From Burkholderiales bacterium (GTDB lineage: Bacteria > Pseudomonadota > Gammaproteobacteria > Burkholderiales > Burkholderiaceae_C): DNA of 64,000 nt. Shown one piece after another: positions 6,077 through 9,092 of this stretch. The first letter of the stretch is position 1, and each line of letters begins with the position of its first letter. A program made the position numbers and the translations under genes. The notes beneath the pieces were generated by a model, which saw only the letters and a program-made list of their open reading frames with translations, had not been told where the DNA came from and searched no databases. The stretch lies in NCBI GenBank assembly GCA_947508055.1, contig CANNRR010000002.1, positions 1-64,000 of the forward strand. The letters are read 5' to 3'.

Positions 6077-6098
6077 TTGACGTTTACGTAAACGTCAA
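6077..6098. promoter_or_regulatory. 22-bp perfect palindrome TTGACGTTTACGTAAACGTCAA, candidate LiuR-like (MerR family) operator of the thiolase operon
   Basis: Read directly; 43 bp upstream of the thiolase start. Confidence 0.65.
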
Positions 6099-6213: not shown

Positions 6214-6753
6214 TCAGGATGTCAACGAAAGGACTGCTTTTTCGGCAGCGAGCAGGCGTTGCTCTTTGGATCCGGCAATGCGGACATGCGGCCATGCCCT
6301 TTCGGCCAGCGTGTGCTCTATCCGTACATGAACGGTTGCGCGTTGTAAAACTCCATCGCGCTGCAAGCCATCTGCCTCCCAGGGGATGTCAGGCTCCAGC
6401 AGCAGCGTCAGTGCGTAGCGAGCCTGCAGCCCGTGTGCTGGCGGGTAGAGGGACGCATCCGCAAACATGCAGTCGCTGTAGATGGCCGTGAGCAGCGGCG
6501 CCGTGTCGCAGAACACCCAGGCGCAGGGTTGCTGGCCGGCAATTTCTAGTGCTGTTGCCTCGCGACGGACCTGCTCCTGCAAAATCGATAATTGCTCGTG
6601 TTGCTCTGGCGTGCGACCCTGCACCTCGGTAAAGTGGCGCAGATACTCAGGCACCCATAGACCGCCCATGCGGGCACTCAGTGCCTGCGCCAAAGTGGTC
6701 TTGCCCGTGCACTCGGCGCCGATGATGCAAATGAGGCGGGGTTCAGAATTCAA
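6214..6753 (-). CDS. NadR/AAA-type P-loop ATPase or kinase
   Basis: Walker A IIGAECTGKTTLAQAL; overlaps the 3' end of the TonB receptor gene by 11 bp. Confidence 0.7.
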   Translation of the reverse strand: MNSEPRLICIIGAECTGKTTLAQALSARMGGLWVPEYLRHFTEVQGRTPEQHEQLSILQEQVRREATALEIAGQQPCAWVFCDTAPLLTAIYSDCMFADASLYPPAHGLQARYALTLLLEPDIPWEADGLQRDGVLQRATVHVRIEHTLAERAWPHVRIAGSKEQRLLAAEKAVLSLTS

Positions 6754-8923
6754 CGGTCACCCGCCCCCGCACGGTGCGCGGTGTCGATGGGAACAGGTAG
6801 ATGCCGCCCCAGTATTGCGTGGGCGCCTCGCGCCAATAACTACGGTCGGTCAGGTTCTCCACGTTCAAGTTCCACTGCGTGGCCTTGCCGATCAACCGAT
6901 TCTGGTAGCGCAGTCCGGCATCGAGTTGCCACGCTGAAGGCAGCGCGACAGAGCCGTCTGCCGTCACGTTCTTGCCGCGATCTGAAGTCAGAAGGCCGTT
7001 GAACGACAGGCCGCGCACGGCAGCGATCTTGTAATCGGCAAACAGGGATGCCTTGGTCTTTGGCACGTTGGTCACCCACTGACCTACCAATGCGGGGTCA
7101 ATCGCTGCGGTGTATTTGGCGTCGATCACGGTCAGACTGGCTTGCAGCGACAGTTGGGCATCCAACTGACCGACCGCCGCCAGTTCCAGCCCACGGTGGC
7201 GAGCGGTTTTCCCTCCAGCTACGCGCAACGGCATGCCGCTGGCCGTGGGCTGGTCATCGGCATAGGGTTTGTCGATGCTGAAGGCGGCCGCAGACACCAA
7301 TACGCGTGGGCTAGGCTGCCACTTCACGCCCACTTCGGTCTGCTCGCTCTTGAGTGCCGGCAACACCTGCCCGGCGTTGATAAACATGGTGGGGCGATTG
7401 GGAACCGCTTCCAACTCTGCACCCTGCCCCCAGGATGCGTAGAGCATGGTGCTAGCCAGTGGTGACCATGACAAGCCCGCCCAAGGGGTGGTCACGGTCT
7501 GGTCGAATGCAATGGCGCGTGAGCCATCGCTGCGCTCGCTGCTGCGGTTCAGCTGTGAAGTGCGAAAGCCCACGAAGCTTTGCACGCTGCTGGTCAGGTC
7601 GCTGACCATTGCAACTGACGCGTCCACTGAGCGTTCGCGGCTGTTGGTGTTGAGGTCCAGGGGCGTTCCATCGCCAGGCGGTGCCACGGGTTTGTCGATG
7701 TTGGTGGAGCCCACATAGTTGTAGGCCTGCTTGGGCGCCAGGTCCACGCGTGCGTTGCGCCCGCGCAAACCGAGGCTGATGCGGTGCTGCACACCCAGCG
7801 CAGCAACCTTGCCTTGCAGTTTTGCATCCCACGCCCACGTGCTGCGTTCTTCGCCTTCGCTGCGGTAGTCGTAAATGTCGACATCGCCATTGGCACACAG
7901 GCCGGGGTAGACGTAGTTGGTAGCGTTGCTGCAACCGTCGGGAAAGGCGAGGCGGTCGTGCACCACGGTGCGCTGTGTGCCCAGTCCCAGATGGGCCTGC
8001 CAGTCGGCGTTGACCTGATGGGCGATAGCGAACTGGGCGTTGGCACTGAAGGCCTCAAACGGTTGCGACCAGTTCTGATTGTTCAGGTTCAAGCGCGAGT
8101 AGTTGCTGGCCGGGAGTGTGTCCGCCACGCCGTCGCCGTTGGCATCGAGTAGCCCCAGGCCAGGGACCGAAGGCTGCTTCTTGTGGTGGTATTCCAGGTC
8201 GGCCGATAGCTTGGTGGCGGGCGATGCCATAGCAAACAGCGCCAGACTGGCGAACTCGCGCTTGCCGTCTGCGCGGTCGAACCGGGTGTGCAGGTCTTCG
8301 GCGGCCAGGTTGACGCGCACGCCCACGGCGCCCCATGCGGTGTTGGAGTCCAGATGCACCTTGGTGCCGCCATTGCCATCGGCTCCCATCGATGCGTTAG
8401 TGAAGGCATCGAGCTGGGGTGTTTTTGTGACGAAGTTGACCAAACCGCCAGGGGCTGAGACGCCCGACTGCAGACCTGCTACGCCCTTCAGCACCTCGAT
8501 TCGCTCCTTGTTCTCCAGCGCGATGGGGGCGTAGTTCGACACGGGCAAGCCGTTGCGCAAAAAGTTGTTGCTTTGGTCCAGCAGGAATCCGCGTACCGCC
8601 AGACCTTCGATGTAACCGGTGGTGTTGTAGCTGTCTGCCAACGAGGCATCGAGCTTGATGGCCTGTGACAGGCTGCTGGATGCGGTGGCGGCCAGCAGGT
8701 CCGCGCCCAGAACGGTCACGCTTTGCGGTGTTTTGGCCAGGGTCAGGCCCAAGCCGCCTACATCGGCACGGTCTGCCTCCAGAACGGGCGCGGCTTTGCC
8801 GGTAACGGTGACCGCGTCCAGGCGTTGTGAGGGGCTTGCGGTTTGAGTCCATCCGGGAGCCGCAAACAGCAGGGTCAGCGCCGCAGCGCTGGGGGAAAGT
8901 TTGAAATGAGAACGGGTTGCCAT
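6743..8923 (-). CDS. TonB-dependent outer membrane receptor (siderophore-receptor-like; likely thiamin-related by context)
   Basis: Signal peptide; plug domain (KTPQSVTVLGADLL...VRGFLLDQSNNFLRNGLP...ERIEVLKGVAGLQSGVSAPGGLVNFVTKTP); C-terminal beta-barrel ending VTVEF. Confidence 0.88.
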   Translation of the reverse strand: MATRSHFKLSPSAAALTLLFAAPGWTQTASPSQRLDAVTVTGKAAPVLEADRADVGGLGLTLAKTPQSVTVLGADLLAATASSSLSQAIKLDASLADSYNTTGYIEGLAVRGFLLDQSNNFLRNGLPVSNYAPIALENKERIEVLKGVAGLQSGVSAPGGLVNFVTKTPQLDAFTNASMGADGNGGTKVHLDSNTAWGAVGVRVNLAAEDLHTRFDRADGKREFASLALFAMASPATKLSADLEYHHKKQPSVPGLGLLDANGDGVADTLPASNYSRLNLNNQNWSQPFEAFSANAQFAIAHQVNADWQAHLGLGTQRTVVHDRLAFPDGCSNATNYVYPGLCANGDVDIYDYRSEGEERSTWAWDAKLQGKVAALGVQHRISLGLRGRNARVDLAPKQAYNYVGSTNIDKPVAPPGDGTPLDLNTNSRERSVDASVAMVSDLTSSVQSFVGFRTSQLNRSSERSDGSRAIAFDQTVTTPWAGLSWSPLASTMLYASWGQGAELEAVPNRPTMFINAGQVLPALKSEQTEVGVKWQPSPRVLVSAAAFSIDKPYADDQPTASGMPLRVAGGKTARHRGLELAAVGQLDAQLSLQASLTVIDAKYTAAIDPALVGQWVTNVPKTKASLFADYKIAAVRGLSFNGLLTSDRGKNVTADGSVALPSAWQLDAGLRYQNRLIGKATQWNLNVENLTDRSYWREAPTQYWGGIYLFPSTPRTVRGRVTVEF

Positions 8924-8995
8924 CGAGAGCCCTTATTCGACGGCAGGGGGTGCAGATTGGCTAGGACGTCCCACAAAGGAGTGTCCAGCATTTTC

Positions 8996-9092
8996 GTCAC
9001 GCTTCCCTGCGCAAGAATTACCTTGATCAAGTTCCAGGGTGTTATCTCAGCCAACCGCCTCGCGACAGTCAGCACCCCTAGCGTTTACGGGA
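8996..9092 (-). promoter_or_regulatory. TPP riboswitch (THI element)
   Basis: Minus strand: ...CTAGGGGTGCTGACTG...GGTTGGCTGAGATAACACCCTGGAACTTGATCAAGGTAATTCTTGCGCAGGGAAGC; conserved GGGGTGC, CTGAGA, GAAC-TGATC and GGTAAT...GC(G)CAGGGAAGC blocks. Confidence 0.93.

Follow-up and report, generated by a model that had tools for sequence, protein, structure and literature searches.

The stretch of Burkholderiales DNA that we analysed (64,000 nucleotides, hereafter the window) probably carries a TPP-repressed operon for thiamin acquisition, in which a NadR-like protein would serve as thiamin kinase and which would operate together with ThiBPQ import and ThiL. The riboswitch, the gene order, the domains and the presence or absence of partner genes were read from the sequence, and from these we infer the substrates, the direction of switching and the coupling of the two genes. 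TonB-type thiamin receptors under TPP control are known already, and the receptor, the riboswitch and the transporters are of known kinds; what appears new here is a candidate family of NadR-like thiamin kinases. The features of the operon are collected in Table 1.

Table 1. Features of the predicted thiamin operon, with positions in the window.
Feature	Position	Strand	Basis
Predicted thiamin kinase: stand-alone P-loop protein, NadR-like (AAA_28)	6214..6753	-	PF13521, AlphaFold, profile
Predicted thiamin receptor of the outer membrane, TonB-dependent, with a role like that of omr1/OMthi	6743..8923	-	Pfam, TIGR01783, orthologues
Predicted 9-bp hairpin TGCCGTCGA-ATAAGGGCTC-TCGATGGCA	8918..8945	-	RNAfold on window and Rhodoferax leader (L002)
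TPP riboswitch aptamer (THI element)	8987..9089	-	Rfam RF00059

A preliminary description of this DNA had placed a textbook THI element ahead of a TonB receptor, and the covariance-model scan that it proposed as a check bore this out. Rfam cmscan of the whole window returned a complete TPP aptamer above the gathering threshold (RF00059, 59.3 bits against a cut-off of 54.3, E 4.3e-9, full-length match to model positions 1-105), which is the sole Rfam match at or above that threshold in the window and the single TPP match genome-wide in an assembly that is 91.8% complete. A Burkholderiaceae TPP model, itself built partly from the window sequence, scores the aptamer at 69.8 bits. Between the end of the aptamer and the ATG of the receptor lie 63 nt, and RNAfold predicts here a 9-bp hairpin: the loop contains AAGGG, which resembles a Shine-Dalgarno sequence, and the ATG falls within the 3' arm. 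The arms are identical in the leader of a related Rhodoferax operon (L002) while the DNA from aptamer to hairpin has diverged; being unchanged between the two leaders, the arms provide no covariation support. The hairpin is a candidate translational expression platform. Searches near the riboswitch for a terminator or a sigma-70 promoter gave nothing above shuffled expectation, and a transcriptional platform was for that reason not favoured. Since the start-site hairpin is kept in Rhodoferax and no terminator-like element stands out, control of the leader is likelier to be translational than transcriptional. TPP bound to the leader would then block the translation start of the receptor and, through coupling, that of the kinase as well.

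The receptor (726 aa) contains Plug (PF07715) and TonB_dep_Rec_b-barrel (PF00593) domains, both over the Pfam cut-off. It also passes the cut-off of the 'TonB-siderophor' model TIGR01783 (278.8 against 223.5 bits), just as the preliminary description had expected of a protein that sequence alone would label a siderophore receptor. Orthologues with E at most 1e-60 are present in 153 of 301 Burkholderiaceae genomes. We took 40 of these orthologues, no two from the same Burkholderiaceae genus, and scanned their upstream DNA with a covariance model trained on the family. A same-strand TPP riboswitch was found in 39, which Rfam scans confirmed, although part of these elements score below the Rfam gathering threshold. 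Because 39 of the 40 have such an upstream element, TPP control is, as far as sequence can tell, the rule for this receptor clade and extends beyond the window. Two loci harbor divergent, back-to-back TPP riboswitch pairs (L101 232-496 and L121 385-643), one for the receptor and the other for the opposite strand. The substrate of the receptor is predicted to be thiamin or a phosphate ester of thiamin. Outer-membrane B1 receptors named omr1 have been described in proteobacteria and others (PMC12442306), and a TPP-controlled operon of Variovorax includes an outer-membrane receptor with predicted thiamin uptake (PMC10409787). The window receptor resembles both in its location and predicted role, and the Variovorax case also in its TPP control; unlike omr1, its gene overlaps a kinase gene and the protein falls in a siderophore model.

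The order riboswitch, TonB receptor, NadR-like P-loop gene held up on analysis. The kinase gene (product of 179 aa) starts with a TTG 11 nt inside the receptor ORF and overlaps the receptor stop, an arrangement that suggests translational coupling of the two. The closest operon that we found, in Rhodoferax palsa_997 (L002), has a TPP riboswitch, a TonB receptor, PnuC and the kinase in series, the permease between receptor and kinase being a protein of 205 aa of the PnuC/PnuT family (PF04973). The window operon is without it, which is most simply explained by loss; a PnuT remnant between receptor and kinase was not found, and the overlapping ORFs leave no room for one. The preliminary description saw no inner-membrane transporter of the PnuT or ThiBPQ type; the window indeed has none, but another contig (C13) of the same genome encodes ThiBPQ. 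The thiamin acquisition operon OMthi-PnuT-Tnr3 of Bacteroides (PMC5613172) likewise combines a TPP riboswitch, a TonB-dependent outer-membrane transporter and a thiamin-phosphorylating enzyme, the last only predicted here. That unit, which is sometimes split, includes an inner-membrane PnuT, whereas the window operon has no PnuT and would rely on a ThiBPQ encoded elsewhere. In place of Tnr3, which forms thiamin pyrophosphate, the window operon has the NadR-like kinase. Outside the operon, at window positions 6077-6098, a perfect 22-bp palindrome (TTGACGTTTACGTAAACGTCAA) with one match in the window and zero in shuffles lies upstream of a cluster of thiolase and acyl-CoA dehydrogenase genes. 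It looks like an operator, possibly one of a LiuR-type regulator.

The kinase belongs to PF13521 (AAA_28, 115.4 bits in Pfam). Against the NadR model TIGR01526 it scores 69 bits, with a cut-off of 341, and matches positions 163-322 only, which are the C-terminal ribosylnicotinamide kinase part. The adenylyltransferase domain is absent; the protein is not a full NadR, that is, an NMN adenylyltransferase plus kinase domain at the curated score. An AlphaFold model made from 27 aligned sequences has a pLDDT of 92.8, and among solved structures it matches NadR kinase domains best (TM 0.84, about 20% identity); matches to RecA and aquaporin were dismissed as P-loop or chance similarity. The Walker A lysine (K18) and the Walker B aspartate (D83), kept from NadR, are invariant across the 27 sequences. 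Unlike NadR, the window kinase has EYLR for EYGR and DTAPLLTAIYS for DT(D/N), and it sits among thiamin genes. Sequence and fold are thus consistent with a kinase of NadR-type fold that acts on a different substrate. Many PnuC-linked Burkholderiaceae kinases (at loci L013, L014, L017, L026, L034 and others) end in a cysteine motif like CExCxDPxCEHRLF, possibly metal-binding; the alignment shows no such motif in the kinase of the window or in the two kinases most closely related to it.

To place the kinase in a pathway the window genome was searched family by family; its assembly has 6.8% contamination besides being incomplete, and absences in it are provisional. ThiL is present (290 bits), PnuC was not detected in this genome, and ThiC was, provisionally, not found either. 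Of 29 genomes of good quality from the same genus, 17 are without ThiC as well, so that a real loss is plausible, and with it a need for thiamin or a precursor from outside. ThiK (TIGR02721) is over its cut-off in none of 141 Burkholderiaceae genomes and has no match at all in the window genome, and thiamin pyrophosphokinase (PF04263) is found in none of the 141. We propose the following route. The TonB receptor would take thiamin or a phosphate ester across the outer membrane, and ThiBPQ would perform the inner-membrane step, replacing the PnuT-type permease of the Rhodoferax operon. The NadR-like kinase would convert thiamin to thiamin monophosphate, thereby trapping it, and ThiL would form TPP from the monophosphate. 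The predicted reaction and its hand-over to ThiL are those of ThiK, the thiamin kinase of E. coli, from which the window kinase differs in coming from an unrelated family (AAA_28). One could instead suppose, with every other part of this route in place, that the kinase is a pyrophosphokinase that makes TPP directly and bypasses ThiL, in keeping with the lack of the TPK family in all 141 genomes, but the window genome does have ThiL, and relatives with the NadR-like fold transfer a single phosphate, so that this idea is barely credible.

It is from genome context that we predict thiamin-kinase activity, above all from the company that the kinase keeps in those 141 genomes, which represent 140 genera. 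The kinase occurs in 87 of them. Together with a PnuC over cut-off it is found in 78, alone in 9, while PnuC without the kinase is found in none and neither in 54 (Fisher 6e-30); for kinase and receptor the corresponding numbers are 70 with both, 17 with the kinase only, 1 with the receptor only and 53 with neither. All ten genomes with ThiB have the kinase and eight of them are without PnuC, so that ThiB is present in 8 of the 9 PnuC-less kinase genomes. The lone exception to the profile is G115 (L189), with a kinase and no detected PnuC or ThiB. ThiB stands here for ten matches at 93-115 bits that do not reach the curated NCBIfam cut-off of 317 but are well separated from the rest, the next match being at 57 bits; each of the ten genes adjoins ThiP-like and, contig permitting, ThiQ-like genes. 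A TPP riboswitch lies upstream of ThiBPQ in nine of the ten loci, the exception being that of the window genome (L076 7071-8123), where none is detectable. On the kinase tree the label PnuT or ThiBPQ needs five changes, at least three of which are forced by well-supported branches. Because of these forced changes we read the sequences as evidence that PnuC and ThiBPQ alternate as partner of a retained kinase and have been swapped more than once.

Individual loci illustrate the alternation. In G122 the order is serS, kinase, TPP riboswitch, thiB, thiP, thiQ; the kinase directly upstream of this riboswitch is the closest other kinase to that of the window (56% identity). G645, from another family of the same order, has a PnuC-kinase pair convergent with a TPP-controlled TonB receptor. 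In G218 and G032 the kinase is still near eno, without PnuC, and ThiBPQ is at another locus, and in G031 a PnuC-kinase pair occupies this same setting near eno. In most Burkholderiaceae the PnuC-kinase pair is found at other loci, in several genomes beside eno; a TPP riboswitch upstream of this usual pair was seen in none of the loci examined, and general riboswitch control of the pair is not claimed. The pair also occurs in other proteobacteria with no TPP element nearby, and outside Burkholderiaceae one of 19 kinase loci has one near it. Two sub-threshold TPP-like elements were noted (L004 8461-8554 and L005 8660-8756), the first directly ahead of a TonB receptor and a few genes downstream of a Flavobacterium PnuC-kinase pair, which suggests that the association of TPP elements with the kinase may reach Bacteroidota.

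Which compound does the kinase phosphorylate? The preliminary description left the choice between thiamin and its pyrimidine or thiazole moieties, and the association with importers now favours the former over the latter. The operon could import precursors or breakdown products, with hydroxymethylpyrimidine or hydroxyethylthiazole as substrate of the kinase; TPP riboswitches do control precursor transporters too (PMC3766115), and a source of pyrimidine would help a genome in which no ThiC was found. Yet the kinase tracks ThiBPQ and PnuT, which are known systems for thiamin itself, and ThiD and ThiM are known as separate families of pyrimidine and thiazole kinases, so that we regard precursor salvage as unlikely. 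Nor do we find it at all likely that the locus serves nicotinamide riboside salvage, with a ribosylnicotinamide kinase, a PnuC that imports nicotinamide riboside and an accidental link of riboswitch and receptor. What counts here against a thiamin kinase is homology: the solved homologues nearest to it, in fold as well, are nicotinamide riboside kinases. PnuC, moreover, is classically a permease for nicotinamide riboside, and it is such a PnuC that the Rhodoferax protein matches best in the PDB. Such salvage accounts for this homology but not for a kinase that is kept with ThiBPQ after PnuC has gone: without PnuC it occurs almost only beside the thiamin-type transporter, no ThiB genome is without it, and three arrangements place it in loci under TPP control or next to a TPP element. 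A thiamin kinase is favoured because the gene follows importers of whole thiamin, ThiBPQ or PnuT, and because no other thiamin kinase was found.

Taken together, the riboswitches of the orthologues, the tie between kinase and importers and the Rhodoferax operon strongly support the thiamin import and salvage that the preliminary description had suggested. We further think it fairly probable that the NadR-like AAA_28 kinases which stand alone in Burkholderiaceae, perhaps together with many of those linked to PnuC in other proteobacteria and in Bacteroidota, form a family of thiamin kinases unrelated to ThiK, and that the adjacent PnuC proteins are thiamin transporters. A large reconstruction names ThiK, ThiM and ThiN as B1 salvage enzymes (PMC6593275), and the open-licence papers searched describe no thiamin kinase of NadR-like type, an absence that is no proof of novelty. 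Salvage of thiamin requires a kinase or a pyrophosphokinase, and neither known family is over cut-off in the 141 genomes, many of which have thiamin importers. The NadR-like kinase that follows these importers fills the gap, offers one directly testable gene and is probably the missing enzyme for the use of imported vitamin B1. If this is true, the annotation of the widespread gene pair of PnuC and NadR-like ATPase would change, many genes named for nicotinamide riboside would belong to vitamin B1 salvage, and dependence on external vitamin B1 could be predicted better for environmental bacteria.
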